A stretch of 64,000 bases of DNA. It comes from Flavobacterium crocinum. Its GTDB lineage: Bacteria; Bacteroidota; Bacteroidia; Flavobacteriales; Flavobacteriaceae. The notes below the pieces were generated by a model that saw nothing but the letters and a program-made list of their open reading frames with translations, was not told the origin of the DNA and did not search any database. This document shows, in pieces, positions 1,289-53,007 of the stretch; within the stretch, counting starts at the first letter, position 1, and every line of letters starts with the position of its first letter. A program made the position numbers and the translations under genes. The stretch lies in the NCBI RefSeq assembly GCF_003122385.1, contig NZ_CP029255.1, forward strand, positions 4,836,001 to 4,900,000, written 5' to 3'.

Positions 1289-1421
1289 TTAACCGCAAGG
1301 TTCGCAAAAGTTTACGCAAAGTTCGCAAATTATTCATGCTTTGCATTTTAGCAGTTTTGCGAGAATAAAAATAGAAAGTCTTAGCGAACCTTGCGTAAAA
1401 CCTTGCGCCCTTTGCGGTTAA
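1289..1421. repeat. Intergenic inverted repeat, TTAACCGCAA family
   Basis: Arms of about 40 bases face each other: the left starts TTAACCGCAAGGTTCGC and the right ends CTTTGCGGTTAA. Shorter GTTCGCAAA units lie inside. It fills the gap between two co-directional GH2 genes. Related elements lie at 7949-8085, 38191-38284 and 52911-53007, and a shorter cousin at 3945-3979. Confidence 0.8.
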
Positions 1422-1458
1422 GCCTCATGCACAATTACAAAAACAAATTAATACAAAA

Positions 1459-3255
1459 ATGAAAAAACTATTAACCGCGTTACTCCTAACCTCATCCGTT
1501 TTGGCGTCTGCACAAAATCTAATATCAAACGTTCCAAACCGAAATACCACTTCGTTAAACGGTGTATGGAATTATATTGTCGATCCTTATCAAACCGGCT
1601 TTTACAGCTTTCACCTTGATCAATACGACAAAAGTGAAAAACCGGCAAAAGGAGCTTTTTTTACGAATTATCATGCTCAAAACAAGCAGGAATTAGTAGA
1701 ATATGATTTTGATAAATCGCCAACAATCAATATTCCGGGTGACTGGAACTCGCAGGTTACAGAATTAAAATACTACGAAGGAAATGTCTGGTTCAAAAAG
1801 TCTTTTGATTATAATTTAGATTCCAACAAACGCCTTTTTGTTTATTTGGGAGCCATTAACTACAAAGCCGATGTTTATTTAAACGGAAAAAAACTAGGAA
1901 CACATGAAGGTGGTTTTACTCCGTTTAACTACGAAGTGACTTCAATTGTAAAACCTGTCGGAAATTATCTCGTTATTAAAGTAGATAATACACGTCATAA
2001 AGAAGATGTTCCGACAGTAAATACCGATTGGTGGAATTACGGTGGAATTACGCGTGATGTAACTTTAATTGAAGAAGAAAATTCTTTTGTGGAAGATTAT
2101 AATATTCAGTTGAAGAAAGGGGATGCAAATGTTATTTCCGGTTTTATTAAAATCAATAATTTCAATCCGGCACAAAATCAGGTTTCTATTTCTATTCCGG
2201 AATTAAAAATCAATTACAAAGGAAAAATTGGTGCTGATGGAATTTTAAATTTTGAAATTCCTGCGAAAAAAATCTCTTACTGGTCACCGGAAAATCCAAA
2301 GTTATATGACGTGACTGTTGACTTTAACGGAAAAAAATTAAATGACAAAATTGGTTTCAGAACGATTGAAACAAAGGAAGATAAAATTCTTTTAAACGGA
2401 AAACCTGTCTTTTTGCGCGGCATTTCGATTCACGAAGAAAATGCCAAAGGCGGACGCGCCAATTCTCAGGAAGATGCTTTACGTTTATTGAACTGGGCAA
2501 AAGAATTAGGTTGTAATTATGTTCGTCTGGCACATTATCCGCATAACGAAAACATGGTTAGAGAAGCAGATAAAATGGGATTAATGGTTTGGGAAGAAAT
2601 TCCGGTTTACTGGACAGTGGAGTTCAAAAATGAAAACACCTATAAAAATGCCCAGGATCAGTTAACCGCAGCGATTACAAGAGATAAAAACAGAGCCAGT
2701 ATTGTTATTTGGTCTATGGCTAATGAAACTCCGGTTTCTGACGCTCGAAATACTTTTATCACAAATTTGGTAACTCATACAAGATCATTAGATAAAACAA
2801 GATTAATCAGCGCAGCCTTATTATCACATAATGGAAAAATTGATGATGAAATTGGTAAATCGCTTGATATTATTGCTTTCAACCAATATTTGGGATGGTA
2901 TGGCGGTAACTTAGAAAATGCTGAAAAGACATTCTGGACTACGCCATACAACAAACCTGTTTTTGTTTCTGAATTTGGAGGTGATGCCAAAGCTGGTTTC
3001 CATGGAGAGAAAAACGAACGCTGGACAGAGGAATATCAGGAATATCTGTACATTCAGAATCTAAAAATGATTGAAAAAATTCCTCATTTAAGTGGAACAA
3101 GTCCGTGGATTCTGGTTGATTTCAGATCTCCAAAAAGATTACTTCCGGGTATTCAGGATGGTTACAATCGTAAAGGCTTAATCTCAAATGATGGCGAGAA
3201 GAAAAAAGCATTTTACATCATGCAGAACTGGTACGCAAAAAAGAGTAAGGAATAA
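1459..3255 (+). CDS. GH2 family beta-glycosidase (beta-galactosidase/glucuronidase type)
   Basis: This is a 598-residue secreted glycosidase. Residues 1-18 form a Sec signal peptide (MKKLLTALLLTSSVLASAQ). A sugar-binding jelly-roll domain (about 25-215), an Ig-like sandwich (about 215-305) and a TIM barrel (about 305-595) follow, the usual GH2 order. The acid/base is Glu423 in VIWSMANE and the nucleophile is Glu505 in VFVSEFGG; RLAHYPHNE is also typical of GH2. The short length, without C-terminal extras, is closer to beta-glucuronidases than to long beta-galactosidases, but specificity is not decided by what can be seen. It follows the partial GH2 gene after a long inverted repeat. It likely acts in the periplasm on oligosaccharides. 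Confidence 0.88.
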   Translation: MKKLLTALLLTSSVLASAQNLISNVPNRNTTSLNGVWNYIVDPYQTGFYSFHLDQYDKSEKPAKGAFFTNYHAQNKQELVEYDFDKSPTINIPGDWNSQVTELKYYEGNVWFKKSFDYNLDSNKRLFVYLGAINYKADVYLNGKKLGTHEGGFTPFNYEVTSIVKPVGNYLVIKVDNTRHKEDVPTVNTDWWNYGGITRDVTLIEEENSFVEDYNIQLKKGDANVISGFIKINNFNPAQNQVSISIPELKINYKGKIGADGILNFEIPAKKISYWSPENPKLYDVTVDFNGKKLNDKIGFRTIETKEDKILLNGKPVFLRGISIHEENAKGGRANSQEDALRLLNWAKELGCNYVRLAHYPHNENMVREADKMGLMVWEEIPVYWTVEFKNENTYKNAQDQLTAAITRDKNRASIVIWSMANETPVSDARNTFITNLVTHTRSLDKTRLISAALLSHNGKIDDEIGKSLDIIAFNQYLGWYGGNLENAEKTFWTTPYNKPVFVSEFGGDAKAGFHGEKNERWTEEYQEYLYIQNLKMIEKIPHLSGTSPWILVDFRSPKRLLPGIQDGYNRKGLISNDGEKKKAFYIMQNWYAKKSKE

Positions 3256-3352
3256 CGAGTATTACCAATTCATTAACAAAAAACAAACTGGAATTATATG
3301 ATTTTTCTTCATTATTAATTTACTTTGTAATAATTCTAAAAATTGTAATCCT

Positions 3353-3916
3353 ATGAAAAAATTATGTTTATTGGCAGTTACATTGTTTGCTGCTTTTACA
3401 GCTCAGGCACAAGATGTGGTAAAATTTGCTCCGCTTGATGCCAGTCCGGTTGATATCTCTTATTTTCCAAACAAAGCAGTTAAATTCAAAAAAACAGACA
3501 ATCCAAATCCGGTTGTAAAAGTTACTTACGCAAGACCTTCTGCAAAAGGAAGAACTATCTTTGGTGACGTTGTAAAATTTGGTGAAGTTTGGAGAGTTGG
3601 TGCTAATGAAAATACCGAAATTAAATTTTACAAAGATGTAACTATCGGCGGTAAAAAAGTTCCTGCGGGATACTACAGTTTATTTGTAATACCTGAAAAA
3701 GATAAATGGACAGTAATCATCAACAAAGAATTAGATTTATGGGGTGGTTATGCTTATGACGAAAGCAAAGATGTGGTTAGAGTTTCTGTTCCTGTAAAAC
3801 CAGTTTCTACTCCAATCGAGGCTTTATCAATTGCTTTTACAACTCAGGGCAACGTTGCAAATCTTGTTATTGGCTGGGATAAAACAACCGCTGAATTGCC
3901 AATTACGGTTAAATAA
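3353..3916 (+). CDS. DUF2911 domain periplasmic protein
   Basis: This 187-residue protein has a clear Sec signal (residues 1-19, ending TAQAQ). The rest is one DUF2911 domain, recognisable from VTYARPSAKGRTIFG, the GEVWRVGANE motif and the KVPAGYYSLFVIP strand pair. The domain is common in Bacteroidota and has no established biochemical role. It stands alone: GH2 genes precede it on the same strand, and a convergent oxidoreductase gene faces it across a strong hairpin. No partner is suggested by context. The start was chosen because the signal peptide begins exactly there. Confidence 0.85.
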   Translation: MKKLCLLAVTLFAAFTAQAQDVVKFAPLDASPVDISYFPNKAVKFKKTDNPNPVVKVTYARPSAKGRTIFGDVVKFGEVWRVGANENTEIKFYKDVTIGGKKVPAGYYSLFVIPEKDKWTVIINKELDLWGGYAYDESKDVVRVSVPVKPVSTPIEALSIAFTTQGNVANLVIGWDKTTAELPITVK

Positions 3917-3944
3917 GTTTTAATGATATATGCCGCGAAGGCAT

Positions 3945-3980
3945 AAAGTCGCAAAGTTTTTTTTAAGCTTTGCGACTTTT
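3945..3980. terminator. Bidirectional terminator between convergent genes
   Basis: A perfect 12-bp stem, AAAGTCGCAAAG (3945-3956) and CTTTGCGACTTT (3968-3979), with an 11-base loop. Short T or A runs flank it. It separates the DUF2911 gene from the oppositely oriented molybdenum subunit gene. The stem carries the same CGCAAAG core as the intergenic repeat family, so the repeat may have been recruited as a terminator. Confidence 0.75.
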
Positions 3981-4005
3981 TAACCCTCTTTAATCTGCTA
4001 AAAAT

Positions 4006-6207
4006 TTAAGCAACAGTTTCTATAATTTTATCCAACGTAATTGGTAAATCTCTAACACGTTTTCCGGTTGCGTTAAAAACGGCATTTGCAATTGCGGGTG
4101 CCATTCCAACCAAAGCAGTTTCACCCAAGCCTTTTGTTCCCATCGGATTACTGATTGGGTCTTTTTTGTTTACAAAGAAAACTTCCTGTTTCTCAATATC
4201 AGCATGAACCGGCACATGATAATCAGCAAAATTATTATTGATTGGACGTCCAAAACGATGATCGATTTCCAGCGCTTCCATCAATCCCATTCCGATTCCT
4301 CCTACTGCACCGCCAAACATTTGTCCGGCAGATGTTTTTTGATTGATTACCGTTCCAATATCGGCACAGGAAACCACATGTGCCAATCGTATTTTACCCA
4401 GATTCGGATTCACTAAAACTTTTACAAAGTGCACTGAAAAAGAATAAATGGAATATTTCTTCGCTTCTTCGGCCGCTTTAGACAGATTTTCAACTTCCAA
4501 TCCTTCTAATTTGTTTGCAGTAAGTAAAGAGGTTAAAGCAATAGACTTAGAACTATTATTCTTAGCAGCAATCAAACCATTTGCAAAAGTTAAATCTGTT
4601 ATAGCGATTCCTTTAAAAACCGGATTTTGAGCTGCCAATTCCAAGGCTTTACTAACCAATAAATTACAAGAATCATGAACTGCAGAACCAACCGATGAAG
4701 TTGTAGCCGATCCTCCTTGAGTTGGGCCTTTTGGCAATCCGCTTTTTCCCATTTCCACAATGACATTTTCAGCAGGAAGTCCTGTTATTTCTGCACCAAT
4801 TGCAGTCATCATTGTTGCTGTTCCTGGTCCCATGTCATTGACACTACATTGCAGCACTAAATTACCATCTGGTAAAAATTTTGCTTTTACCGAAGTTGGA
4901 CTTCTGTAACAGCCAAAAGTCCCCGTTCCCATTCCGTAACCAACAAGCCAGTTCCCTTCTTTAACAGAACCAGGTTCATTTTTACGGTTTTTCCAGCCAA
5001 TACGTTCCATTCCGCCTTCATAACATTCCAGAAGATATTTACTGCTCCACGGTTTATTTTGTTCCAAATCTTTTTCAGCATAATTCAGTTTACGGAATTC
5101 GATTGGATCTAAGTTTAATTTATAGGCCATTTCATCCATCGCACATTCTAAAGCAAACGAACCCGTTGCTTCTCCCGGGCCACGCATCCAGATTGGTGTA
5201 CAGGTATCCAAAGGGACAATTCTATAACGTGTAGAAACATTGGCACAATCATAAATAAAACGGGACATGTTTACCGTTCCTTCCATAAAATCCTCATAAC
5301 TGGAAGTCATTGCTACAGCTTCATGAGTCAAGCCTGTCAGTTTACCTGCTTTTGTAGCTCCAAGACCCATTTTCTGAATCGTAAAAGGTCTGAAACCTAC
5401 ATTGGTAAACATCTGTTCGCGATGTAAAACTAATTTCACCGGACGATTTAATTTTTTTGCGCCCATCAAAGCAGCGATTTCATAAGGCCAGGTATGTAAT
5501 CCCATTCCAAATGCACCTCCTAAATATTCAGAAAACACCGAAACATCATCAACTGGAACATCAAAAACTCCGGCAACACTTCTTCGTGTCCCTTCCACTC
5601 CTTGACTTTTAGTGTATAAAGTCGGTTTATTTCCATCCCATTTAGCAATGATATTCGCTAATTCCATAGGGTTATGAACCTCAGTTGGAATCGTATATTC
5701 GGCTTCTAAAACAACTTCTGCATTTTTGTAGCCGTCATGTTCTCCACGATGGTAATCGTTTCCTTTTTCGGTATCTATTTTTTTCTCTTTATCAGCCGCT
5801 TTTTGAAGATCTGTCGAATGTTCTTCTTTAAAATAATCTGCTTTAATCAGACTCGCTGCATATTGCATACGTTCAAAAGTATCTGCAATAACCAAAGCGA
5901 TTGGCTGATCGTAATATAATACCGAATCGTCTTTAAAAATTTGCAGCGGCTGCCCAAAGTTACGTTTGTCTTTTGCTTTTTGATATCCTGAAGGTTTATC
6001 GACATTTAAATGTGTAATGACGGCCAGAACTCCCGGTGCCCATTCTGCTTTTTTAGTATCAATACTTTTGATTCTTCCTTTTGCAATGGTACTTCCCACC
6101 AAACAACCATATACCACACCTGCTGTTTTATATTCAGCAGAATACGTTGCAGCACCCGTGACTTTAGCAAATCCGTCAACTCTATTAATATTACTTGTCT
6201 TGCTCAT
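4006..6207 (-). CDS. paoC: Molybdenum-binding subunit of PaoABC-like aldehyde oxidoreductase
   Basis: This 733-residue protein is the large subunit of a xanthine oxidase family molybdoenzyme, about the length of E. coli PaoC. It begins with the aldehyde oxidase/xanthine dehydrogenase a/b hammerhead domain (about 10-125). The molybdopterin-binding domains follow (about 130-715), with glycine-rich loops such as YLGGAFGMG and GGSATTSS. The catalytic base is expected to be Glu696 in KGLGETALVG, matching the active-site Glu near the C-terminus of PaoC. It has no signal peptide of its own, so co-export with the Tat-bearing iron-sulfur subunit is expected. It lies 8 bases downstream of the FAD subunit gene. 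The family oxidises aldehydes; the substrate here is unknown. Confidence 0.9.
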   Translation of the reverse strand: MSKTSNINRVDGFAKVTGAATYSAEYKTAGVVYGCLVGSTIAKGRIKSIDTKKAEWAPGVLAVITHLNVDKPSGYQKAKDKRNFGQPLQIFKDDSVLYYDQPIALVIADTFERMQYAASLIKADYFKEEHSTDLQKAADKEKKIDTEKGNDYHRGEHDGYKNAEVVLEAEYTIPTEVHNPMELANIIAKWDGNKPTLYTKSQGVEGTRRSVAGVFDVPVDDVSVFSEYLGGAFGMGLHTWPYEIAALMGAKKLNRPVKLVLHREQMFTNVGFRPFTIQKMGLGATKAGKLTGLTHEAVAMTSSYEDFMEGTVNMSRFIYDCANVSTRYRIVPLDTCTPIWMRGPGEATGSFALECAMDEMAYKLNLDPIEFRKLNYAEKDLEQNKPWSSKYLLECYEGGMERIGWKNRKNEPGSVKEGNWLVGYGMGTGTFGCYRSPTSVKAKFLPDGNLVLQCSVNDMGPGTATMMTAIGAEITGLPAENVIVEMGKSGLPKGPTQGGSATTSSVGSAVHDSCNLLVSKALELAAQNPVFKGIAITDLTFANGLIAAKNNSSKSIALTSLLTANKLEGLEVENLSKAAEEAKKYSIYSFSVHFVKVLVNPNLGKIRLAHVVSCADIGTVINQKTSAGQMFGGAVGGIGMGLMEALEIDHRFGRPINNNFADYHVPVHADIEKQEVFFVNKKDPISNPMGTKGLGETALVGMAPAIANAVFNATGKRVRDLPITLDKIIETVA

Positions 6208-6215
6208 AATTCTAA

Positions 6216-7196
6216 TTATTTTGATGCTGCTATAGTAAGTGCTTCTGTTATCGTATTGGCTCCAAGCGTAATTTTAAAATCATTTCCGCCGTAAGTTCTG
6301 GCCCCTTTCATTGCTAAATCACCCGCTTGTCTAAAAACTTCTTCTGAAACTGTTTTTCCTTTTAGAAATTCCTCTGCTTCAGTCAATCTCCAGGGTTTAT
6401 GCGCCACACCACCCATGGCAAGTCTGACATCATTTATCACATTATTTTTTAAATCCAATGCCGCAGCAACAGAAACCAATGCAAAAGCATAACTCGTTCT
6501 GTCACGAACTTTCAGATAATAAACATTTTTAGTAAAATTATGATCCGGAATTTCAATAGAAGTAATCAGTTCTTTTGCTTCCAGAGTATTGTCTTTTTCA
6601 GGTGTATTTCCTGGCAGACGATGGAAATCTGTAAATTTAATTTGTCGTTTTCCTTTTGGTCCTTCAACTAAAACTTGCGCATCTAAAGCCGCCAAAGCAA
6701 TACACATATCACTTGGATGAACGGCAATACAACTATCTGAAGCTCCAAAAACAGCATGCATTCTGTTGGAACCGCCAATCGCACCACAACCGCTTTTAGG
6801 AGTTCTTTTATTACACGGCATATCGGTATTATAATAATACGAACATCTTGTTTTCTGCAGCATATTACCGCCAACTGTTGCCATGTGTCTGATTTGTTGA
6901 GAAGCTCCCGCTGCTAAAGCCAAAGACAATAACGGATGTTTTTCTTTTATTGCACCATCTTCGGCAACCTGACTGTTTTTGGCCAAAGCACCTATGGAAA
7001 CTTTACCTTTTAAAAACTCAATTTTCTTTAAATCCAGACCGTTAATATCAATTAGTTTGTCTGGCGCAACAACATTCTTTTTCATCAAATCCACCAGATT
7101 TGTTCCGCCTGCAATAAACATCGCTTCTTTCTCTTTGCTGATATTCGTTACGGCCGAAGCTGATGATAAAGCTCTAATTATTTGGAAATTTTTCAT
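6216..7196 (-). CDS. paoB: FAD-binding subunit with 4Fe-4S insertion, PaoB-like
   Basis: This 326-residue subunit passes electrons between the iron-sulfur and flavin centres of the aldehyde oxidoreductase. FAD-binding motifs are visible at about 27-40 (FIAGGTNLVDLMK) and 105-117 (MATVGGNMLQ). A cysteine-rich insertion follows, with Cys118, Cys128, Cys137 and Cys156. This is the pattern of the extra 4Fe-4S cluster known in PaoB and absent from ordinary xanthine dehydrogenase flavin subunits. The C-terminal CO dehydrogenase flavoprotein domain completes it. The gene overlaps the upstream paoA-like gene by 23 bases and precedes the molybdenum subunit by 8, so the three are translated from one message. 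Confidence 0.9.
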   Translation of the reverse strand: MKNFQIIRALSSASAVTNISKEKEAMFIAGGTNLVDLMKKNVVAPDKLIDINGLDLKKIEFLKGKVSIGALAKNSQVAEDGAIKEKHPLLSLALAAGASQQIRHMATVGGNMLQKTRCSYYYNTDMPCNKRTPKSGCGAIGGSNRMHAVFGASDSCIAVHPSDMCIALAALDAQVLVEGPKGKRQIKFTDFHRLPGNTPEKDNTLEAKELITSIEIPDHNFTKNVYYLKVRDRTSYAFALVSVAAALDLKNNVINDVRLAMGGVAHKPWRLTEAEEFLKGKTVSEEVFRQAGDLAMKGARTYGGNDFKITLGANTITEALTIAASK

Positions 7197-7830
7197 AACT
7201 CTTCCCTCCTTCCTTCACTTCCGTTATAGCATCTACAATATTATGGTAAGCACCACATCTGCAGATATTACCACTCATATATTCTCTGATTTCTTCTCTG
7301 CTGTTAGCATGTCCTTCCTTTATACAGGCAATTCCCGACATGATTTGTCCAGGCGTACAATAACCGCACTGAAAACCATCATGTTTGATAAAAGCTTCCT
7401 GCATTGGGTGTAGTTTCTTTCCTTTCGAAAGACCTTCAATAGTGGTAACTTCTGCATTTTGCTGCATGGAAGCTAAAGTTAGACAAGATAAAATTCTTGT
7501 TCCGTTGACATGAACTGTACAGGCACCACATTGACCGTGATCGCAACCTTTTTTGGTTCCGGTAAGCTGTAATTGCTCTCTTAGTAAATCGAGCAAGGTA
7601 GTTCTTGGCTCAATATTAAGATTGTGCTTTTTGCCGTTTACTTCAATAGATAGCGGTACTGTCTCTAAATACTCCGCTATTTTTTCATCCCATTTATTCT
7701 CTGAAGCCATTACCAACGAAGGTGGTGTAAAGGCAAGCGCAGTAAAAAGCCCCGATTTCTTTATAAAGTCGCGGCGGGAATTGGAGTCATTCTCCGTTAC
7801 TTCTTTCGGATTGTTTTTTTTAGAAGCCAT
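7174..7830 (-). CDS. paoA: 2Fe-2S subunit with Tat signal, PaoA-like
   Basis: The small subunit carries two 2Fe-2S clusters. A plant-type ferredoxin domain holds CDHGQCGACTVHVNG, and an all-alpha domain holds CGYCTPGQIMSG and NICRCGAYHN. A twin-arginine motif RRDFIK (residues 19-24), followed by a hydrophobic stretch, marks Tat export of the folded complex to the periplasm. An open frame continues upstream to 7914, but I place the start at 7830 (218 residues, MASKKNN). The extra 28 residues look non-coding, the Tat motif then lies at the usual distance from the N-terminus, and a TAAATTTG promoter-like box at 7873-7880 would put the transcript start inside the extension. It is the first gene of paoABC. 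Confidence 0.88.
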   Translation of the reverse strand: MASKKNNPKEVTENDSNSRRDFIKKSGLFTALAFTPPSLVMASENKWDEKIAEYLETVPLSIEVNGKKHNLNIEPRTTLLDLLREQLQLTGTKKGCDHGQCGACTVHVNGTRILSCLTLASMQQNAEVTTIEGLSKGKKLHPMQEAFIKHDGFQCGYCTPGQIMSGIACIKEGHANSREEIREYMSGNICRCGAYHNIVDAITEVKEGGKSYEKFPNN

Positions 7831-7872
7831 TCTATCTATCTTTAAATTAGCAAAATCACTTTGGTATTCTAA

Positions 7873-7880
7873 CAAATTTA
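7873..7880 (-). promoter_or_regulatory. Candidate -7 box for paoABC-like operon
   Basis: On the minus strand the bases read TAAATTTG, an exact match to the flavobacterial TAnnTTTG -7 element, about 43 bases before the chosen paoA start. The nearest upstream TTG is only about 14 bases away, shorter than the usual 17-23, so the assignment is tentative. Confidence 0.4.
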
Positions 7881-7948
7881 ACAATCTTAAATCACAAAAA
7901 GTTATGAAATTCAAACATTAGGCTTATTTAGAATAATTACAATTTTTA

Positions 7949-8085
7949 TTTAACCGCAAAGAACGCAAGCTTTTTTACTATTTACACCTTAATAAAAACG
8001 CAAAGTTCGCAAAGCTTTATCGATTCCAGATTTGCGAACTTTGCGGTTAATTATGATAAAAAACTTTGCGTGCTTTGCGGTTAAA
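7949..8085. repeat. Nested intergenic inverted repeat, TTAACCGCAAAG family
   Basis: The outer arms (left TTTAACCGCAAAGAACGCAA, right ending TTTGCGGTTAAA) are about 29 bases with few mismatches. A second inverted pair is nested inside, with AACGCAAAGTTCGCAAA facing TTTGCGAACTTTGCGGTT. It occupies most of the space between the divergent paoA-like and cysteine desulfurase genes. Confidence 0.8.
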
Positions 8086-8129
8086 AAACGTCTTAAAATT
8101 GTACTTTTACAAGACCAAGCTTTTATTTA

Positions 8130-9278
8130 ATGTCACATCAACAAAATATTTATCTGGATAATAATGCCACGACTCGTGTTGATGAACGCGTTTTGAATGC
8201 AATAATTCCTTATTTCACAGATTTGTATGCCAATTCTACAAGCAGTCATATTGCTGGATTAACAATAAACGAAGCTGTAGAAAATGCTGCCTGGCAGGTT
8301 GCTGATTTAATTAATGCCAATGCTGAAGAAATTATTTTTACTTCCGGCGCTACAGAAGCTATCAATTTAGCCATTAAAGGTCTCGCAAACCAAGACAAAA
8401 AACATATTATTACAATTCAAACAGAACACAAAGCAGTTCTTGAAACTTGCCTTTTTATGGAAAATATTGGTTTTGATGTCAGTTATTTACCTGTTGATAG
8501 AAATGGTATTTTAGACTTTCATTTTCTAAATCAAACTATTACAGATAAAACACTGATTTTCATTGGAATGTTTTCGAATAATGAAACGGGTGTTATTCAA
8601 AATATGCTTGAAATTTCTAAACTGTTGAAAAGTAAAAATGTACTTTTTATGTGTGATGCGACACAAGCAGTTGGCAAAATTCCAATTGATGTCAAAACTT
8701 TAGGAATTGATCTTTTAACTTTATCTGCGCATAAATTTTATGGCCCAAAAGGAATTGGTGCCTTGTATGTTTCGGCGAAAGCCAAAATCAAACTGATTCC
8801 TCAAATTCTAGGCGGAGGACAACAGCGAAAACTACGCAGCGGCACGCTCAATGTGCCTGGAATTATAGGTTTAGGTAAAGCATCTGAAATAGCTGTAAAT
8901 GAATTAGAAAAAGATTTAGATAGAATTTTTCTATTGCGAAATAAACTCGAATCTGGCTTATTGCAATTTAAAGGTTCTTTTGTCAACGGAAGCATTCCAA
9001 ACAGAATTTATAATACTACCAATATTTGCTTTCCGGGTGTGAATTCAGAACAGCTTATTATGGCATTGGGAAATATTTCGGTTTCTAATGGTTCGTCTTG
9101 TTCTTCGGTTACTTCTGAGCCTTCACATGTTCTGAAAGCGATGGAGCTATCTGATGAAGAAGCTTTGAGTTCCATTCGTTTTAGTTTGGGACGATTTACT
9201 ACTGATGAAGAAATTGATATTACTGTTGAGCGGGTTTTATCTTTGGCTCAGCAATTGGTTTTGCCACGAAGGCACTAA
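8130..9278 (+). CDS. Cysteine desulfurase, NifS/IscS class, probably for Mo cofactor sulfuration
   Basis: This 382-residue PLP enzyme removes sulfur from cysteine as an enzyme-bound persulfide. It has the class V aminotransferase fold, with NNATTRVDE near the N-terminus, the ATEAINLAIKG cofactor loop, the PLP lysine Lys202 after His201 in SAHKFYGPKG, and catalytic Cys324 in SNGSSCSS. It is transcribed divergently from paoABC and faces the mocA-like and xdhC-like genes. Xanthine oxidase family enzymes need a terminal sulfur on molybdenum, and in known systems a NifS-type enzyme hands it to an XdhC protein. I infer a dedicated maturation role here. A general iron-sulfur role is less likely, because no IscU or Suf genes adjoin. 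Confidence 0.88.
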   Translation: MSHQQNIYLDNNATTRVDERVLNAIIPYFTDLYANSTSSHIAGLTINEAVENAAWQVADLINANAEEIIFTSGATEAINLAIKGLANQDKKHIITIQTEHKAVLETCLFMENIGFDVSYLPVDRNGILDFHFLNQTITDKTLIFIGMFSNNETGVIQNMLEISKLLKSKNVLFMCDATQAVGKIPIDVKTLGIDLLTLSAHKFYGPKGIGALYVSAKAKIKLIPQILGGGQQRKLRSGTLNVPGIIGLGKASEIAVNELEKDLDRIFLLRNKLESGLLQFKGSFVNGSIPNRIYNTTNICFPGVNSEQLIMALGNISVSNGSSCSSVTSEPSHVLKAMELSDEEALSSIRFSLGRFTTDEEIDITVERVLSLAQQLVLPRRH

Positions 9279-9358
9279 GGCGCTAAGTTTTTTAATCTTG
9301 CAAAGTCACCAAGTTTTTTTTTGCCACAGATTTCACAGATTAAAAGGATTAAAAAAAA
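9258..9358. repeat. Low-complexity repeat segment after desulfurase gene
   Basis: Contains TTGCCACGAAGGCACTAAGG and TTGCCACAGATTTCACAG followed by a purine-rich run, which look like unpaired halves of intergenic repeats. No good hairpin is formed here. It overlaps the last codons of the desulfurase gene, so that gene's C-terminal residues appear repeat-derived. Confidence 0.4.
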
Positions 9359-36592: not shown

Positions 36593-38176
36593 CTACTCAA
36601 ATTCTCCCACAAACGTTACTACCGACTTTGCAGGAATCTCTAAGTTATTAATTTTCTGTGTATTGGTTCTTTTTAAATTTGAATTATCAGAAGTTACATA
36701 AGGAGTGAACTCGTTATTTTTTAGAGTTCCTTTTGATAAATCGAATTTGTATTTCTGAGCTTCTTTTCCGCAATTTACAGCCACTACAATCAGTTTTTTG
36801 TTTTGAATGTCTTTGTAAGCGGTTAGCATTACATCATTTGCCGAATCCAGTTCTTTTTGGTTTGGAATATCAATTCTCTGCATTCCCGGACGAACAAAAA
36901 GCGAATAATTTCCTAATGCCCAAAGCAGTTTTGAATCGTGAAATTCGCCATCATTTTTGACATAATTTGGCTCAGTTCCTCCATTGCTTTTTCCATCATC
37001 CAAATAGATCAAACCGTCTTTGTAATCTACTCTTGTGATTGAAGTCCACCACTGCCATGAAGCCGCATTGGCAACCGCAATATCATTATGAATTAATCGT
37101 GCTACAAATAAAGCAGTCTGCATGCCTAAATCTCTTCCTCCTCCAGAACCTCCCGGGATTTCATTTTCTCCCGGATTCTCTAAAATACAATATTCCGACT
37201 GCCAATATTTTAACCCTGGTTTTTGTTTTACTTCGGCAGCAATTAGTTTTCGGCTTAAAACTTGTCTTTCAATTGGCCAAGTTGTAAAATAACTGTGTCC
37301 AAGGATTACATTTTTAACATTTGGAAATTTAGTCACATTAGTTTTCGTTTTTCCAAAGAAAAAATCAATTTGATTGTCACGATTTTCTGCATTTACATTT
37401 TCATATAAATAATCAATTTGTGCTGCTTCTGCTATCACAATTTCAGTATTCATTTTTTTAGCTAACAGCTTTTCCGAAAGTGATTTGGTTAAATCATAAA
37501 TTTCCTGATTGGTTGCCGGAGTTCCTTCCTGACTGTTGGTATCGCCATGTTTTGGCATCCATTCCCACTGCGGTTCGTTTATTGGGCTCACATAATCAAA
37601 TTTGATTCCTTCTTTTTTCTCTAATCCCTGAATACTTTGAACTAAGAAATCGGCAAATTTTGGAATTGCACCATCTTTTAGATTCAGTTTATTCTTTTGA
37701 GAGGCAAAAGATAATCCGTTGTTTGTCATGTAAACCGGAGGGCTATTTGTAAAAATAAGAAATTTTTCTACTCCTCTTTTTTTAGCCGCCTGTAAAAACC
37801 ATCTCTGTCCTTCTTGTTTGGAAAAATCATAAGTTCCGTCAGCATTTAGAAAACATTCGCTTCTTCTCCATTCATCAGAAACTTTACTGTTTTCGCCTTG
37901 TTCTGTACTTCCGGCTCCCAAATTAAATCGCCAGATCGAAAGTCCGATTCCTTTTGGATTTCCATTTGCATCTATTTCTTTACTAAACAACAAATCTGCA
38001 ATAGCATTTTTTTTCTGCTCCGGCCAGTTTTTACCCACAAACTGAGTTCGCCAGGCATCAGAACCTCCAAAACCGTCCATGGTTTGTACTACCTTATCTG
38101 TGCTGATGGTAACGGTTCGCTGTGCAAATGACAGCGAACTAATTACCAATAAAAGCGAGAGATATATTTTTCTCAT
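36593..38176 (-). CDS. GH30 family glycoside hydrolase, secreted
   Basis: This 527-residue enzyme has a cleavable Sec signal (ending LSFAQ). The GH30 barrel plus side beta-domain are complete: MDGFGGSDAWR near the N-terminus, acid/base Glu201 in YVSPINEPQ, and nucleophile Glu328 in WQSEYC. The family includes endo-beta-1,6-galactanases, beta-1,6-glucanases, xylanases and glucosylceramidases. The surrounding galactose- and arabinose-acting genes favour a galactanase, which is inference. It is clearly paralogous to the next upstream gene along nearly its whole length. It lacks a lipobox, so it is probably periplasmic, while its paralogue is a lipoprotein. Confidence 0.87.
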   Translation of the reverse strand: MRKIYLSLLLVISSLSFAQRTVTISTDKVVQTMDGFGGSDAWRTQFVGKNWPEQKKNAIADLLFSKEIDANGNPKGIGLSIWRFNLGAGSTEQGENSKVSDEWRRSECFLNADGTYDFSKQEGQRWFLQAAKKRGVEKFLIFTNSPPVYMTNNGLSFASQKNKLNLKDGAIPKFADFLVQSIQGLEKKEGIKFDYVSPINEPQWEWMPKHGDTNSQEGTPATNQEIYDLTKSLSEKLLAKKMNTEIVIAEAAQIDYLYENVNAENRDNQIDFFFGKTKTNVTKFPNVKNVILGHSYFTTWPIERQVLSRKLIAAEVKQKPGLKYWQSEYCILENPGENEIPGGSGGGRDLGMQTALFVARLIHNDIAVANAASWQWWTSITRVDYKDGLIYLDDGKSNGGTEPNYVKNDGEFHDSKLLWALGNYSLFVRPGMQRIDIPNQKELDSANDVMLTAYKDIQNKKLIVVAVNCGKEAQKYKFDLSKGTLKNNEFTPYVTSDNSNLKRTNTQKINNLEIPAKSVVTFVGEFE

Positions 38177-38190: not shown

Positions 38191-38284
38191 TTAACCGCAA
38201 AGGCGCTAAGTTTTTCGCAAGGTTCGCAAAGTTTAATTTAAGCTTTGCGAACTTTGCGGTTTGTCTTTGCGACTTTGCGGTTAA
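38191..38284. repeat. Intergenic inverted repeat, TTAACCGCAAAG family (between GH30 paralogues)
   Basis: Starts TTAACCGCAAAGGCGCTAAG and ends CTTTGCGGTTAA, with an inner pair TTCGCAAAG and CTTTGCGAA. It fills most of the 118-base gap between the two GH30 genes. Confidence 0.85.
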
Positions 38285-46652: not shown

Positions 46653-49600
46653 CTATTTGATGACATTTAAATCTGAATTGAAAGAATTTTTATATTTTTT
46701 AATATATTCTGAAGGAGTCATTCCAAAAAGTTTTACAAACTGCTGTCTGAAATATTTAGGATCTTCAAAACCAACTTCGGCACTTGCTTGTGCGATATTC
46801 ATTTCTTCAGTCAGCATCAACATTGCTGCTCTTCGAATTCTTAAGGAACGAATGAAAGCATTTAAAGTCTGTCCCGAAATAATTTTGATTTTGGTATAAA
46901 GCGTTCTGTGGCTCATTCCCATTTCAAGTGCAAAAGTTCTAATCGTAAAATCTTTTTTATGAATGTTTGCTTCTACAATATCAATACATTTTTTTAGCAT
47001 TTGCTGATATTCTACCGGAACTTTCTGAGTATTTTCTTTTAGCGTTATGTTGTCCAGAAAATAAGCTCGTAAATTATGTCGATTTCTAAGCAAAGATTCA
47101 ACACGGGCAGTGAGAATATCATCATCAAAAGGTTTGGTAATATAATCGTCTGCTCCTTCATTAATTCCCTGTAAATGGGTTTCAGGATTTTTGGATGCTG
47201 TCAATAAAATAACCGGAATATGGGATAAAGCATTATCTTCTTTAATTTTCCGGCATAATTCCAAACCATCCATTTCTTCCATTGTAATGTCGCTAATCAC
47301 AAGATCCGGCATGTGTTTTTTGGTCATTTTAAGTCCTTCTTCTCCATTTTCTGCACTATAAACAATGTAATTATCCGAAAATAATTTGACTAAATAGGCG
47401 CGAATTTCTGCATTATCATCAATAATTAAGACAGTACGTTTTTCTGTTAACATTGTCTTTTTAAAATCGCTTTCAGAAACCGAGTTTATTATTGCTGGCT
47501 CTTCAATTTCATCTGGAATCAATTCGTCAAATAACTGGCTTCTCTGTGGTTTTTCGTCTGTTATTTCAGCATTTTCAAAATGGCTGTTTCCTTTTAAAAA
47601 TGTTAATTTAAAAATACTTCCCTTTCCAGCTTCACTGCTACAGGTCACAGAACCTTTGTGTTTGTCCACAAAATATTTAACGATATAAAGTCCGATACCA
47701 AAACCAGTTCCTACGGAAACTTTAGAATTGATCTGCTTGAATTTTTCAAAAATAACGTCAATATCTTTTTTATCAATTCCGTCTCCGCTATCGCTTATTT
47801 CAAGAAAAACTTCATCATCATTTTCTGTTACTTTCAAATTGATTTCTCCTCCAACTGGCGTGTATTTAAAAGCATTTGACATTAAATTGAACAACGAAAT
47901 TTCTATCTTTTCATAATCGCCAATAATCGTAATTTCATGCTCAGGAATAATGAAATTATAACTAATCTGTTTTTCTTTTGCCTGATTGACGAAACACTGA
48001 TACACTTCATTAGAAAGAATATTTACGTTAATAGGAGACAAACGCAAGGAATCGGCATCGTTTTCAGCTTTTCTTAATAAAAGCAACTGATCAACCAAAC
48101 TTAAAAGTCTTCTCGCATTTCGGTGCGCAATAGCCAAATCACTTCCAGCAGAACCATTTTCAACATTTTCTTTCTGAACCGCTTTTTTCAACGGATTAAT
48201 AATCAGCGAAAGCGGCGTTCTAAATTCATGCGAAATATAAGTAAACATTGACGCCTGTTTTTCGGCTATCTCTTTTTCTTTTTTACTTTCGAGTTCGGCT
48301 ATTTTTACCTTATACTTTAGTTTTTCTTTATTCTTATTATAATCAAGATATAAAAATAACATACCTCCAATTGCAGCTAAATACAAGGTATAGGCCCACC
48401 AGGTTCTGTACCAAGGTGGTAAAACGGTTACAGAAACTAAACTGACTTCTTTATTCCATCCGCCCTGGAAATTGGTTGTTTTTACTTTAAAAGTATATTT
48501 CCCTTCCGGAAGTCTGGAATAATTTGCTTTTCGGGTTTGTCCAACATAATTCCATTGCTCGTCCCAGCCTTCCAGAAAATAGGCGTAGTTTATTTTGTCT
48601 GAGTTGTTATAATCCAAAGCAACAAATTCTAATGACAATGTCGTTTGATCGTATTCTAAACTAACATCTTTTATTTTATCTGAATCAGTATCAACTTCTG
48701 CTTTACTTTCTTCAATCAACTGATTATTCACATAAAAATCAGTCAGTAAAACATTGTTCTTTTGATTAAAACCTTTTATGGCTTCAGGATAAAAAATATT
48801 AAAACCATTAATTCCTCCAAAAAGAAACTCTCCGGAAGAAAGTTTTATACCGGCATTAAAACTAAACTGATTACTCTGAAGTCCATCGTTTACAGAAAAA
48901 TTACGGAATGTTTTACTTTTTTTATCATATCGGCAAATTCCGTTGTAAGTACTCATCCATAAGTTGCCGTATTTGTCTTCCAACAACCTTAAAACTGTAT
49001 TTGACGGCAAACCATCATCAATCGTTAATCTTTTAAAATTATTTGTTTTTCGATCGAATAATAGCAAACCTCCTTCTTGTGTTCCAATCCAGAGATTTTT
49101 GTCTTTATCTTCATAAATACATCTTATAGGATTTCCGATTGCTTTTTTAGTAACTTTTCGGGTTTCTTTTTCGATAGATAAAAGTGAAGTATAATTTCCT
49201 GCCCACAATTTTCCGTCTGAAGTCTCTGTCATGCATTGCAGATTGTCAATATTTTTATCAAAAAGAATAAAATTATCTGTCTTGCGATCCAGGAAATATA
49301 ATGAACCTTCATTTGTTGCACTTGCCCAAATATTGGCTTTTGAATCTTTAAATACAAACCAGATATTTTTTTCGGTTTGTTTGGTAAAAGTGTTATAACA
49401 CGAATAATGTTTTACAGTATTTGTTTTCTTATTAATAAGATTGATTCCTCCTGCCCAGGTAGAAATCCAGATATCATTATGATCATCACGAATTATTCCG
49501 GTTATAAAAGGACTTGAAAGTGAAGTTCCGTAATTGGAATAAGTATTATTTTTTCGATCCCAATATTTTAATCCTGCACCATCTGTTCCCACCAAAAGAT

Positions 49601-50675
49601 TCTTCTTTTCATCTTCGCAAAAAGATAAAATAAAGTTATCTGCAGGCTCTTTTGCATTGTATCGGATGCTTTTAAAATACCTAGGCGTATCACTCAGCAT
49701 ACTGATGCCACCACGAAGTGACCCAAACCATTTGTTACCCGATTTGTCTTCGTATAAACTCCAAACCGAATTACTCTTTGCTAATTGTTCATTATAAGAA
49801 ATAGGTTTATTATTTTGATTGATATAAAAAATACCGAATCCGTCTGTGGTCAACCAGGTTTTTCCTTTTTTATCAATTAAAATATCTGTAACACTGCATT
49901 TATTGGTAAAATAATTTTCTGAAACTAAACCTGTCTTAGTATTCAATAAAAACAATCCTTCATCAGTTCCTAATAAAAGATTTCCATCAGCAGACAATTT
50001 CATTGCTTTTACTCCAATAGAAAGCGGAAATATTATTTTTAAATCTTTTGCCTTATAATCATAATTACAGACTCCCATATTTCGAACATACACCCAGCAT
50101 CCTGATTTTTCTTTGTTTTCCTGAATAGCAATCGCGTCATAAGTATTAATGCTGATTCTGTTTCCTAAAGCATTTAACGAAATATGTTTTCCAATAAAAG
50201 AACCATTTTCAAAAGCCAATAATCCTAATTTTTGGGAAGCAACCAGTACCAATTGATCTGACACAGATCGCATCTGATGAATAATATCCTGTAAAACTTT
50301 TGTTTTTTTATCCTGACCTATATATCTAACGGTATGAAAGACGGCTTTCTTCTTGTCGTAAATACAAATTCCGCTGGTTCCTCCTATCCAAATATTGTTT
50401 TTAGAATCGCCTTCAATATTGTAGATTGTATTGAATAAAAGTGATTTTTTATCGTTGATTCTGTTTCTAAAAACTTTAAAATTATAGCCATCGTATCGGT
50501 TTAAACCATCATAGGTTCCAAACCACATAAATCCTTCATTATCCTGGTAAATAGAAATAATTGAATTGTTAGATAAGCCGTCAGATATATCAAGGAATTT
50601 GACTGGATAATCCTGTGAAAAAACCTCAGAAGAAAATCCTATAAGGAGTAGAAAATAGAGAACAAATGGTTTCAA
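46653..50675 (-). CDS. Hybrid two-component system regulator (HTCS)
   Basis: A single protein of about 1340 residues joins sensor, kinase and transcription factor, and it presumably controls the downstream glycan operon. The periplasmic part is two propellers of Reg_prop repeats (forms of IWIGTxxGLxxYD) and a Y_Y_Y domain (GKYTFKVKTTNFQGGW). A membrane helix follows near YTLYLAAIGGMLFLYL, then HisKA with His816 in YISHEFRTPLSL, HATPase, a receiver with Asp1129 in VISDITMEEMDG, and an AraC-type helix-turn-helix at the end. An open frame runs back to 50780, but that stretch passes through the terminator of the previous gene, so I choose the TTG at 50675. It starts a good signal peptide (KPFVLYFLLLIGFSSEVFSQ). 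Confidence 0.9.
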   Translation of the reverse strand: MKPFVLYFLLLIGFSSEVFSQDYPVKFLDISDGLSNNSIISIYQDNEGFMWFGTYDGLNRYDGYNFKVFRNRINDKKSLLFNTIYNIEGDSKNNIWIGGTSGICIYDKKKAVFHTVRYIGQDKKTKVLQDIIHQMRSVSDQLVLVASQKLGLLAFENGSFIGKHISLNALGNRISINTYDAIAIQENKEKSGCWVYVRNMGVCNYDYKAKDLKIIFPLSIGVKAMKLSADGNLLLGTDEGLFLLNTKTGLVSENYFTNKCSVTDILIDKKGKTWLTTDGFGIFYINQNNKPISYNEQLAKSNSVWSLYEDKSGNKWFGSLRGGISMLSDTPRYFKSIRYNAKEPADNFILSFCEDEKKNLLVGTDGAGLKYWDRKNNTYSNYGTSLSSPFITGIIRDDHNDIWISTWAGGINLINKKTNTVKHYSCYNTFTKQTEKNIWFVFKDSKANIWASATNEGSLYFLDRKTDNFILFDKNIDNLQCMTETSDGKLWAGNYTSLLSIEKETRKVTKKAIGNPIRCIYEDKDKNLWIGTQEGGLLLFDRKTNNFKRLTIDDGLPSNTVLRLLEDKYGNLWMSTYNGICRYDKKSKTFRNFSVNDGLQSNQFSFNAGIKLSSGEFLFGGINGFNIFYPEAIKGFNQKNNVLLTDFYVNNQLIEESKAEVDTDSDKIKDVSLEYDQTTLSLEFVALDYNNSDKINYAYFLEGWDEQWNYVGQTRKANYSRLPEGKYTFKVKTTNFQGGWNKEVSLVSVTVLPPWYRTWWAYTLYLAAIGGMLFLYLDYNKNKEKLKYKVKIAELESKKEKEIAEKQASMFTYISHEFRTPLSLIINPLKKAVQKENVENGSAGSDLAIAHRNARRLLSLVDQLLLLRKAENDADSLRLSPINVNILSNEVYQCFVNQAKEKQISYNFIIPEHEITIIGDYEKIEISLFNLMSNAFKYTPVGGEINLKVTENDDEVFLEISDSGDGIDKKDIDVIFEKFKQINSKVSVGTGFGIGLYIVKYFVDKHKGSVTCSSEAGKGSIFKLTFLKGNSHFENAEITDEKPQRSQLFDELIPDEIEEPAIINSVSESDFKKTMLTEKRTVLIIDDNAEIRAYLVKLFSDNYIVYSAENGEEGLKMTKKHMPDLVISDITMEEMDGLELCRKIKEDNALSHIPVILLTASKNPETHLQGINEGADDYITKPFDDDILTARVESLLRNRHNLRAYFLDNITLKENTQKVPVEYQQMLKKCIDIVEANIHKKDFTIRTFALEMGMSHRTLYTKIKIISGQTLNAFIRSLRIRRAAMLMLTEEMNIAQASAEVGFEDPKYFRQQFVKLFGMTPSEYIKKYKNSFNSDLNVIK

Positions 50676-50732
50676 AATGTACTTAGTTAGGGTCGGGTAA
50701 TAAGTACAATTATAAGGTAATTTTAGGGAAAA

Positions 50733-50774
50733 ATTAAAAAAAGAATGCAGAAATGACCAACATTCCTGCATTCT
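50733..50774 (-). terminator. Terminator after lutC
   Basis: Stem of nine pairs, AGAATGCAG (50742-50750) and CTGCATTCT (50766-50774), followed on the minus strand by a T-rich run. It ends the lut genes and also shows that in-frame ATG codons at 50780 and 50771 of the regulator frame cannot be its real start. Confidence 0.82.
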
Positions 50775-50877
50775 AATCAAGCTTTTATATTTAAGCTATT
50801 TTTTTTAATAAAACATTCCTTATAGAGTTTAAATTAAATGGGAATATTTTTATCAATAAAGAAGCTCAATCAACTTA

Positions 50878-51465
50878 TTATTCTAATAAAAAAACAATCA
50901 ATCCTCTTGCACCATGCGCGCCAAGAACTAGAGATTGTTCAATATCTGCTGTTTTTGATGGCCCTGCAATGAAAGTTCCAAAACCATATTCCATATTACC
51001 GATTCTGTCATAAGCTTGCTGCATCGTTGGCAGAATGTCTTTTTTATGAACTACAATAGCTAAATATTGTGCTATGAATGGCGCAACACGCTGACCTAAT
51101 ATATCATCTGTAACCCAAAGTCCACTGTTTTCTGCGACACCAAAATGCGCTTTGATAACCGTTAATTCAACATCCTGAAGCGAATGAGGATCAACTGTTT
51201 TCCAATCTAAAGACGCAATTTCAGAAAGTTCCGGAAGTGTTGTTATTAATCGTTTCTCCTGATTATAATTCAATTTGATGTAATTGATGATTTCATTATA
51301 ATCAGCAACTTCAACAGGATCTCCTCCGATCCCTTTCAAAACCGTTTTATACGTTTCTATTATATCAAATTGTTCAGAACCTAAAAGTTTTAAATCTGGC
51401 AATTCTGCAAGTTCATTAGGCTGATTCGCTTTTATTCTTTTTAAAATTTCGCCTTTACTACTCAT
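50878..51465 (-). CDS. lutC: LutC/LldG-type LUD domain protein, lactate utilization
   Basis: This 195-residue subunit of the LutABC (LldEFG) complex oxidises L-lactate to pyruvate. It consists of one LUD domain, with VELTVIKAHFGVAENSGLW and GFGTFIAGPSKTADIEQSLV, the usual C-terminal signature, and GAHGARGLIVFLL at the end. I take the ATG at 51465 (MSSKGEILKR) as start, overlapping the lutB stop by eight bases. A longer frame to 51552 lies inside lutB and is unlikely. A strong terminator follows. Confidence 0.9.
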   Translation of the reverse strand: MSSKGEILKRIKANQPNELAELPDLKLLGSEQFDIIETYKTVLKGIGGDPVEVADYNEIINYIKLNYNQEKRLITTLPELSEIASLDWKTVDPHSLQDVELTVIKAHFGVAENSGLWVTDDILGQRVAPFIAQYLAIVVHKKDILPTMQQAYDRIGNMEYGFGTFIAGPSKTADIEQSLVLGAHGARGLIVFLLE

Positions 51466-52858
51466 TTCCTTTTTCTTTAGATTCTCTCGAATTTTTCTTG
51501 TACCATTCTCTAAAAGATTCTTGTGGAACATCTGGCATTTCGCGCTGATCATACCATTTATTCATCTTATTGTTAACCATTCCGGGAATGTTCTTCATTA
51601 CAAATCGTCCTGATTTTCCAGCAATATTAAAAACCGTTGGATTTGCCAGCACTGTTGCCATCGTTTTCATCGCCACCGTTTTTACCTTTGGCGTATGGCC
51701 TTCTTTTACCAAAACCTGACGCCATTTGTACAATTGGTCGTGAATATCAATTTTTACAGGACAAACATTCGTACATGAACCGCAAAGCGTACTGGCAAAA
51801 GGCAGATCAGCATTTTTGCTCATATCCAAGTTTGGCGCTAAAATAGAACCAATTGGCCCCGCAACTGCATTATGATAACTGTGTCCACCGCTTCGTCTGT
51901 AAACTGGGCAGGTATTCATACAGGCACCGCAGCGAATGCATTTCAATGAATTCCTAAAATCTTCTCTTCCTAATTGCGTGCTTCTTCCGTTATCTACAAT
52001 TACGATATGCATTTCTTTTCCGTCTCTTGGCTTTTTGAAATGGCTTGAAAAAGTAGTAATAGGCTGTCCTGTTGCACTTCGCGCTAACAATCTAAGGAAA
52101 ACACCTAAATGTTCTCTTTTCGGAATCAATTTCTCGAATCCCATGCAGGCGATGTGAACGTCTGCTAAATGCGCACCCATATCAGCATTTCCTTCATTGG
52201 TGCAAACCACGAACTCTCCTGTTTCAGCAACAGCAAAATTGACTCCTGTTAAAGCTACTTTTCTAGTCAAAAAAGTATTTCTCAAACTATGACGAGCAGA
52301 TTCTGTTAAATACTGCGGATTAAAATTTCCTTTTTCTGTACCTAAATGTTCATGAAAAGTTTCACTTACATCTTCTTTCTTTAAGTGAATCGCTGGAAGC
52401 ACAATATGGCTTGGTGGTTCTTTACGAAGCTGTACAATATATTCTCCTAAATCTGAATCGATTACTTCAATTCCTTTTTCAGCTAAATAATCATTTAAAT
52501 GGCATTCTTCTGTAAGCATCGATTTGGATTTCACCATTTGCTTTACATCATGTTTTGCCAGAATAGAATGTACTATTTCATTGTGTTCTTTGGCATCAGC
52601 TGCCCAATGTACAATTATTCCGTTTCGTTGCGCATTTGCTTCAAATTCAACTAAATAATCGTGGATATTAGAAAGTACATTAAATTTTATTTGGGAAGCC
52701 GTTTCGCGAAGCAATTCCCAATCTGCTATTTGATGAGCTGATCTGTCTCTTTTCGCGCGAACAAACCAAAGTGTTTCATCATGCCAATTCACACGTTCTA
52801 CATCTTTATTGAACTTTGTTGCGGCTTCGCTATGCTGTATTATTTTTTCTGATGACAT
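51458..52858 (-). CDS. lutB: LutB/LldF-type iron-sulfur protein, lactate utilization
   Basis: The central subunit of the lactate oxidation complex, 466 residues. A LUD domain covers about 70-300. Two 4Fe-4S motifs follow: CIRCGACMNTCPVYR (about 310-325) and CGSCTNVCPVKIDIHDQLY (about 360-380). The C-terminal region is the DUF3390-like tail common in this family. It overlaps lutC by eight bases. Between it and lutA lies a 171-base gap with a large inverted repeat, unusual for genes whose products form one complex. Confidence 0.92.
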   Translation of the reverse strand: MSSEKIIQHSEAATKFNKDVERVNWHDETLWFVRAKRDRSAHQIADWELLRETASQIKFNVLSNIHDYLVEFEANAQRNGIIVHWAADAKEHNEIVHSILAKHDVKQMVKSKSMLTEECHLNDYLAEKGIEVIDSDLGEYIVQLRKEPPSHIVLPAIHLKKEDVSETFHEHLGTEKGNFNPQYLTESARHSLRNTFLTRKVALTGVNFAVAETGEFVVCTNEGNADMGAHLADVHIACMGFEKLIPKREHLGVFLRLLARSATGQPITTFSSHFKKPRDGKEMHIVIVDNGRSTQLGREDFRNSLKCIRCGACMNTCPVYRRSGGHSYHNAVAGPIGSILAPNLDMSKNADLPFASTLCGSCTNVCPVKIDIHDQLYKWRQVLVKEGHTPKVKTVAMKTMATVLANPTVFNIAGKSGRFVMKNIPGMVNNKMNKWYDQREMPDVPQESFREWYKKNSRESKEKGNE

Positions 52859-52910
52859 TTTCTACTATTTAAAAGTCAATTTTGAAATGTTTATCATTGG
52901 TATGCTTTAT

Positions 52911-53007
52911 TTAACCGCAAAGTTCGCAAAGGAAAAAGCGCAAAGTTCGCAAAGATTAAAATTAACTTTGTGAACCTTGCATAAAACTTTGCGAACTTTG
53001 CGGTTAA
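52911..53007. repeat. Intergenic inverted repeat, TTAACCGCAAAG family (lutA-lutB junction)
   Basis: Starts TTAACCGCAAAGTTCGCAAAG and ends CTTTGCGAACTTTGCGGTTAA. The outer 21 bases are exactly complementary, and inner AAAGTTCGCAAAG copies could pair in other ways. It splits the lut operon. Confidence 0.9.

Follow-up and report, generated by a model that had tools for sequence, protein, structure and literature searches.

Word palindromes with TTAACC ends recur at gene junctions of Flavobacterium crocinum and turn over between its relatives

BIMEs, ERIC, NEMIS and similar elements are palindromes that lie scattered between genes and become part of mRNAs. We describe a comparable family, F1, from the single 5.88 Mb chromosome of Flavobacterium crocinum (NZ_CP029255.1; genome G000), four members of which lie in the window, the whole stretch of 64,000 nucleotides analysed here (positions 4,836,001 to 4,900,000; G000:C1:4836001-4900000). 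To our knowledge, neither the repeated words of F1 nor its TTAACC ends are found in BIMEs, ERIC or NEMIS. F1 elements are numerous, share their ends, and sit at gene junctions where they are replaced, nested and, between lutA and lutB, inverted among relatives. They show no link to genes for repetitive extragenic palindromic (REP)-associated tyrosine transposases (RAYTs), and their pattern recurs on a phage contig and in other taxa. We see an even chance that F1 elements are non-autonomous mobile palindromes that owe their mobility to something other than a RAYT of their own genomes.

Introduction

The closest described systems are REP sequences and REPINs with their RAYTs. As portrayed in two reports (PMC3116915, PMC3733652), these share with F1 inverted conserved outer parts, a variable middle, intergenic location, high copy number, a single-strand hairpin and agreeing arms. 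F1 is likewise an intergenic high-copy palindrome, 3 of its 61 sites overlapping a predicted open reading frame (ORF). It differs in size, mostly 75-170 bp as against the 20-40 bp of REP units given in PMC3733652, and in its TTAACC ends, which lack the GTAG or CGTC tag that this report assigns to REP sequences. F1 is also composed of tandem words, has no detected link to RAYT genes, and extends as a word pattern to distant taxa and viral contigs.

Bacterial miniature inverted-repeat transposable elements (MITEs), such as the Cardinium MITE (PMC9769881), are short, non-coding and mostly intergenic, with inverted ends and lineage-specific amplification. F1 shares the MITE hallmarks of a length below about 300 bp, inverted ends and a non-coding nature; it differs in consisting of palindromic word repeats with nesting, and in that a search of its own genome revealed no parental insertion sequence (IS) with the same ends and that no target duplication could be demonstrated. 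The multicopy nucleotide sequences of Geobacter (PMC2700814, PMC2996986) can be likened to F1 by description, not by sequence: these reports tell of several families per genome, some palindromic, in many intergenic regions, and of other families that are direct repeats of 6-42 nt. For two Flavobacterium species, a table from the RepRanger study (PMC12306157) lists 4,118 and 2,411, which we take to be putative REP counts. Exact strings of F1, of the other words and of an 18-mer described below retrieved no relevant paper from the open-licence literature, figures and supplements excluded.

Results

F1 is a high-copy family with conserved ends

The first-pass annotation of the window had allowed that copies of its four palindromes might prove few, or their ends be shared by no other sequence. 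Instead, the exact end TTAACCGCAAAG occurs 103 times in the 5.88 Mb genome (46+57), as compared to six times (2+4) for its reversed control. A rule requiring three words within 60 nt of one another, which excluded, for example, positions 1242697, 2082201 and 5144405, turned 100 of the 103 end positions into 77 word clusters, some outside F1, and these into 61 merged F1 sites. Two recognisable ends are present in 43 elements of the genome. The copies are palindromes built of GCAAAG-type words, with a typical arm, read from the extracted sequences, of TTAACCGCAAAGnnCGCwAAGATTTACGCAAAGnnCGCAAAG; the TTAACC end is conserved and the inner words are variable. Some half elements of about 36 bp were also seen on reading the sequences. 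The two arms tend to agree: the outer variable dinucleotide is identical between them in 32 of 67 two-ended elements, against 10.5 expected and a permutation maximum of 23, where the 67 are pooled over genomes with orthologues included and G000 alone contributes 19 agreeing elements out of 43.

An F1 end match was found in 122 of 150 genomes of the genus, with per-genome counts of 0 to 135, and in the 32 of them that reach 4.5 Mb, larger genomes tend weakly towards higher F1 counts (0.39, p 0.03). Whole F1 elements separated by short spacers form tandem arrays at G000:C1:1506479-1507507 (period ~177 bp), 1480497-1481230 and 5437092-5437676; the first comprises six tandem copies in G000 as compared to one in the relative G322. 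At locus L038 (G000:C1:1572800-1576200), an F1 arm has apparently been interrupted by the insertion of an IS-like segment that contains two ORFs, and CCTTTGGC flanks the segment on both sides, suggesting an 8-bp duplication.

Window elements and gene context

All four palindromes lie within 1 base of where the first-pass annotation had placed them, and all are intergenic. Element 1 (1289-1421; TTAACCGCAAGG...CTTTGCGGTTAA) occupies the gap between two co-directional GH2-type genes. Element 2 (7950-8084), which contains an inner F1 hairpin, lies between divergent genes for a Fer2 subunit and a class-V aminotransferase. Element 3 (38191-38284) separates two co-directional GH30 genes and lies about 15 bp ahead of the downstream start codon at 38176, and element 4 (52911-53007) separates lutA (53030-53839) from lutB (51458-52858). 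The annotation had also placed two of the palindromes inside operons. This agrees with elements 3 and 4, both flanked by co-directional and functionally linked genes; the genes around element 1 are co-directional as well, and those around element 2 are not. The predicted RNA folds are strong relative to dinucleotide shuffles (z -7.2 to -12.4), with values of -7.2 and -9.0 for element 1, -9.9 for element 3 and -12.4 for element 4, elements 1 and 2 having been folded on both strands and elements 3 and 4 on the minus strand only. Allowing up to two mismatches gives 20 instances of the end motif in the window, where 8.0 were expected and no shuffle gave more than 19.

Genome-wide, with genes called by ORF length alone, 47 of the 61 F1 sites lie between co-directional genes, 11 between convergent and 2 between divergent genes; the remaining one, at a locus edge, was not classified. 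F1 is one of many strongly folding sequences in such places. In six large genomes of the genus, z <= -4 is reached by 70 of 159 intergenic gaps that measure 60-400 nt, as compared to none of 60 coding controls. By gene orientation, strong folds occupy 17 of 23 gaps between convergent genes, 48 of 109 between tandem genes and 5 of 27 between divergent genes.

Turnover at fixed junctions

To compare G000 with G322, 56 flanks were prepared and 48 queried, of which 40 could be placed in G322 and 8 could not. Four of those placed were the window sites; the other 36 were fetched, 2 proved unpairable, and the resulting 34 together with the window sites gave 38 compared sites, all chosen for F1 in G000 and for alignable flanks. 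F1 was kept in G322 at 31 of the 38 (27 of the 34 pairs and all four window sites, one partially). At the seven other sites, G322 has another palindrome in five cases (judged by eye), 886 nt of other sequence in one, and a nearly empty junction in one, the G000 counterpart of which is complex.

At several junctions, other palindromes are nested inside F1. In the window set, the element 2 junction of G365 and G322 has a CGCAGATTT-type palindrome within F1 sequence, and the G322 counterpart of element 3 has an 18-bp palindrome in place of 5 nt in one arm. The element 1 junction carries F1 also in G345 and G322, and other repeats in G209, G365 and G056. Terminator-like hairpins are centred in F1 shells at L073 (G000 946492-946646) and L028 (1527346); G322 also has a terminator-like hairpin at these two junctions, enclosed in a different shell.

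The lutA-lutB junction was compared in 30 genomes. It carries F1 in the forward orientation in 10, F1 inverted in 6, and a family of ATTAAG words in 14, as a long palindrome in 10 and a short form in 4. The inverted copies have the same right flank as the forward carriers in six of six cases and the same left flank in four of six (by eye), and once reversed they align almost without gaps (15 rows, with five of the six inverted copies; G076, which carries the 18-mer, was excluded). These states are interspersed on the gene tree and require at least 13 changes, 7 of them switches between F1 and the ATTAAG family and the other 6 switches of orientation.

An 18-bp exchange and other word families

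The sequence TCCCGATAGCTATCGGGA is a perfect 18-bp palindrome that is absent from the window but occurs in 57 of the 150 genomes of the genus, with as many as 66 sites in one genome (control 0). When up to three mismatches are tolerated, the compared junctions of G322 contain it 15 times, and 13 of these occurrences could be aligned to G000. The 18-mer takes the place of exactly 5 nt in 11 of the 13 and of 4 nt in the other two, always within word repeats. No other observation made here points as clearly as this exchange to a specific process. Counts of F1 and of the 18-mer show no clear correlation in the 32 large genomes (Spearman 0.24, p 0.18).

Further families of word palindromes share the F1 layout, namely CCATTAAG, GCCACGAATT, CGCAGATTT, GCCACAGATT, GCCACAAAGGCAC and GGTGCTAAG, and replace, adjoin or nest in F1. 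Two palindromes of other kinds lie in the window. One, at 55228-55357, is made of tandem words (GTTAGGAGTTATGGGTTATTCGTTA...), belongs to a different family and lies in an intergenic gap (z -6.4). The other is a short hairpin at 3945-3979, between convergent genes, which the first-pass annotation had taken for a terminator and a cousin of the four large palindromes. It does fold (z -5.8), but it has no F1 end, was not flagged by a terminator scan, and from its words, GCCGCGAAGGCATAAAG...CTTTGCGAC, it apparently belongs to a neighbouring family.

The F1 pattern beyond the genus

The string ACCGCAAAGNNCGCWAAG turned up in 9 genomes when 249 of the family were sampled and in 42 when 296 of the phylum were; without the genus of the window, the figures are 7 of 247 and 28 of 278 (Bacteroidota), and the reversed control gave none. 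For a wider search of 257 Gb with an 18-letter pattern, about 240 matches are expected by chance and single distant matches prove nothing; weight was put on matches accompanied by an inverted partner or a third word, relative to reversed controls. A scan of named contigs returned at least 117 stretches, and 80 loci were analysed. Of these, 21 with the motif were from Flavobacterium. Among 22 loci from other Bacteroidota, 14 had the third word (control 0). Outside Bacteroidota (37 loci, one without a phylum name), 11 had the inverted partner (control 1, two strings) and 12 the third word (control 0); example hosts are assemblies of Methanoperedens, Verrucomicrobiota, Methylomirabilota and Gammaproteobacteria, and binning errors are possible. 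Some of the analysed loci are metagenome bins with doubtful names, such as two labelled Bifidobacterium breve.

Viral contigs yielded 115 stretches with the 18-letter pattern; an inverted partner accompanies 24 of these (control 8) and a third word 21 (control 1). A 27-letter three-word arm was found in 85 stretches, and of 118 such arms 39 have an inverted partner, as compared to one in the control. In these viral arms T stands at -4 in 77 of 107 and at -3 in 83 of 107, the A at -1 being fixed by the pattern. Many three-word arms, at L431 and elsewhere, stand alone with no inverted partner (79 of 118), and some lie just upstream of an ATG. On the phage contig 3300020005_000015, palindromes occupy three junctions in a run of structural genes, four of ten tested proteins match head or tail families, and at the third junction the next predicted ORF overlaps the palindrome. 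Five viral contigs together carry 13 two-ended copies, 4 inside a longer predicted ORF and 9 not. A related phage locus, with one tail protein 84% identical, has no F1 word pair, and other word repeats were seen by eye at the corresponding junctions. The phage-contig element had no match among isolate phages and a single partial match among plasmids, in Calothrix, at 27% coverage.

Origin in place or by copying

The main rival to mobility is that the palindromes are made and reshaped where they stand by replication errors, through slippage of 8-10 nt words and through template switching between hairpin arms, which is known as quasi-palindrome correction. No transposase would be required, and shared families would spread by ordinary recombination. 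Such a process would suit the existence of many families with one layout, the agreement between arms, the tandem arrays, the abundance of strong folds in intergenic gaps relative to coding controls, and the lack of clean insertion boundaries. Independent origin does not predict, however, that the same string, ACCGCAAAGNNCGCWAAG, should recur 45+39 times in one genome and appear patchily outside the genus where its control is absent. We regard this explanation as unlikely on balance, while taking it seriously.

Possible selection on mRNA hairpins

A second alternative, which we consider rather improbable, is that selection maintains F1 elements as mRNA hairpins, with a role in the separation, stabilisation or processing of messages from co-transcribed genes, for example as RNase III sites or exonuclease barriers. 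The strong folds and their distribution over convergent, tandem and divergent gaps point in this direction, as do the tandem or convergent position of 58 of the 60 classified sites, the 10 of 60 sites at which predicted genes flank the F1 words on both sides at no more than 30 nt, and the presence of other-family palindromes at the same junctions. The same positions would nevertheless result from bystander insertions that are purged from promoters, and base pairing is poorly preserved. In 21 aligned elements (20 compared with G322 and element 1 with G345), 96 pairs are broken and 13 compensated. Eleven of the 13 fall at three sites where the genomes carry different sequence, and without those sites the counts are 49 and 2. 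Paired columns change only slightly less often than unpaired ones (8.4% versus 117 of 1129), and at lutA-lutB, where most pairs hardly vary, one of 30 consensus pairs shows a kept double change. The pairing patterns do not point to strong selection on the hairpin, and compensatory change as proof of an RNA function finds no support in either data set.

The first-pass annotation had judged the palindromes to be unlike ordinary terminators. Elements 1 and 2 gave no hit under a T-run terminator rule in a scan that covered 1200-8300, which leaves intrinsic termination by these two unsupported. In 43 elements, the 8 nt that follow GGTTAA are most often A (156 of 344; T, 117), without an excess of T-runs. 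Rfam families gave no match in the window at gathering thresholds.

RAYT genes

That F1 elements are REPINs moved by a RAYT, a Y1 HUH transposase, was favoured by their palindromic form, intergenic position, high copy number and agreeing arms, and by the presence of Y1_Tnp (PF01797) matches in 108 of 150 genomes of the genus, with seven in the source genome. The first-pass annotation had offered three readings, namely REP-like mobile elements, RNA stabilisers and sites for a nucleoid protein, and had suggested a search for an associated RAYT. The REP-like reading is supported by the conserved ends and variable middle, the genome-wide dispersal and the turnover between relatives, and fails at the transposase. 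No F1 was found within 1.5 kb of any of 37 Y1_Tnp loci (the 7 in G000 and 30 of 55 matches in 11 other genomes). Given how densely F1 sites are spaced, chance would bring F1 near just one or two of these loci, so the absence indicates lack of association rather than avoidance. Three genomes, G004, G052 and G053, have 93, 61 and 43 exact F1 ends without a PF01797 match, and F1 and Y1_Tnp counts are uncorrelated over all 32 of the 150 genomes that reach 4.5 Mb, G000 included (Spearman -0.003). RAYT mobilization was accordingly rejected as the default, and we hold it to be very improbable. Several of the Y1_Tnp genes of G000 (L031-L037) adjoin palindromes of other kinds, CCCGTGGTTTCAACCACGGG, GTTCCTAGCGGAAC, GGCTTTAGCC and AAGGTTTCCAAAACCTT, as judged by eye.

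Least probable of all is that a nucleoid-associated or partition protein binds to the words, for which the conserved ends and words and a regular spacing of 9 and 12 bp (116 and 33 of 198 tallied, summing to 21 bp) would speak, but against which stand the spacing of 8, 9 and 17 in the ATTAAG family at lutA-lutB (ten related sequences), the swapping of junctions to other words, and the wide range of copy numbers in the genus. The differing spacings also led us to reject helical phasing as a common rule.

Discussion

We favour the reading that F1 elements are mobile palindromes that depend on a mobilizer other than a RAYT of these genomes. They would spread by being copied into gene junctions and would work like REPINs or MITEs, with the conserved TTAACCGC ends as the recognised part, while the words, the loop and nested inserts vary freely. 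An inserted copy would persist for long, during which its arms may be homogenised against each other, it may be inverted, probably by recombination between its own arms, and it may serve as a target for further palindromes, as in nesting and the 18-mer exchanges. Selection would act mainly to purge copies from promoters and genes, leaving survivors inside or after transcription units, where they would become strong mRNA hairpins as a by-product. Phages may act as carriers.

Several observations weigh against mobility. The 38 sites compared between G000 and G322 gave no insertion event, no target duplication and no clean empty site. Because no clean empty site was available, target duplications could not be demonstrated, and as TTAA is itself palindromic, a TTAA duplication would be indistinguishable from the element end. 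Most copies are old, because 31 of the 38 sites, chosen as described above, are common to both genomes. Neither a candidate mobilizer nor a parental IS with F1 ends was found in G000 in a search with exact ends at 100 of the 103 positions; of 34 adjacent plus/minus end pairs, only 3 are spaced 300-4000 bp apart, one of them apparently owing to an IS inside an element. Several unrelated word families have the layout and junctions of F1, which a sequence-independent origin would explain equally well. At lutA-lutB the tree is weak, 9 of its 27 inner branches being starred, and these alone force 2 to 4 changes per state (3 for the inverted state); inter-species recombination could explain part of the turnover there. 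None of the other G000/G322 sites scored clearly higher when inverted, some spans being very short and some skipped as too long, and a general tendency to invert was rejected in favour of inversion at lutA-lutB only. Beyond the genus, the inverted partner at the 22 other Bacteroidota loci (9) is hardly above its control (5). Element 4 matched nothing in the plasmid and isolate-phage collections, and isolate phages and plasmids were set aside as carriers.

Tentatively, F1 may be viewed more broadly as one family of pan-prokaryotic word palindromes of gene junctions, in which both arms carry tandem words of 8-10 nt and the ends are of the [A/G]CC type. Bacteria, archaeal Methanoperedens assemblies and tailed phages would all harbour them. 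Such families would replace one another and nest, and would propagate in a way unrelated to RAYTs, with the exchange of 5 nt for an 18-bp palindrome as a footprint. This wider proposal is possible, and we consider it less probable than mobility of F1 as such.

With strong palindromes in 70 of 159 gaps of six genomes, the process that generates or disperses them has a large part in shaping the non-coding DNA. If it is true that the same elements cross phyla and phages without a RAYT, then a mobilizing or palindrome-generating activity beyond those known would be widespread. The lutA-lutB junction, with its four states in 30 genomes, and the 5-for-18 nt exchange provide concrete and testable footprints of such an activity.

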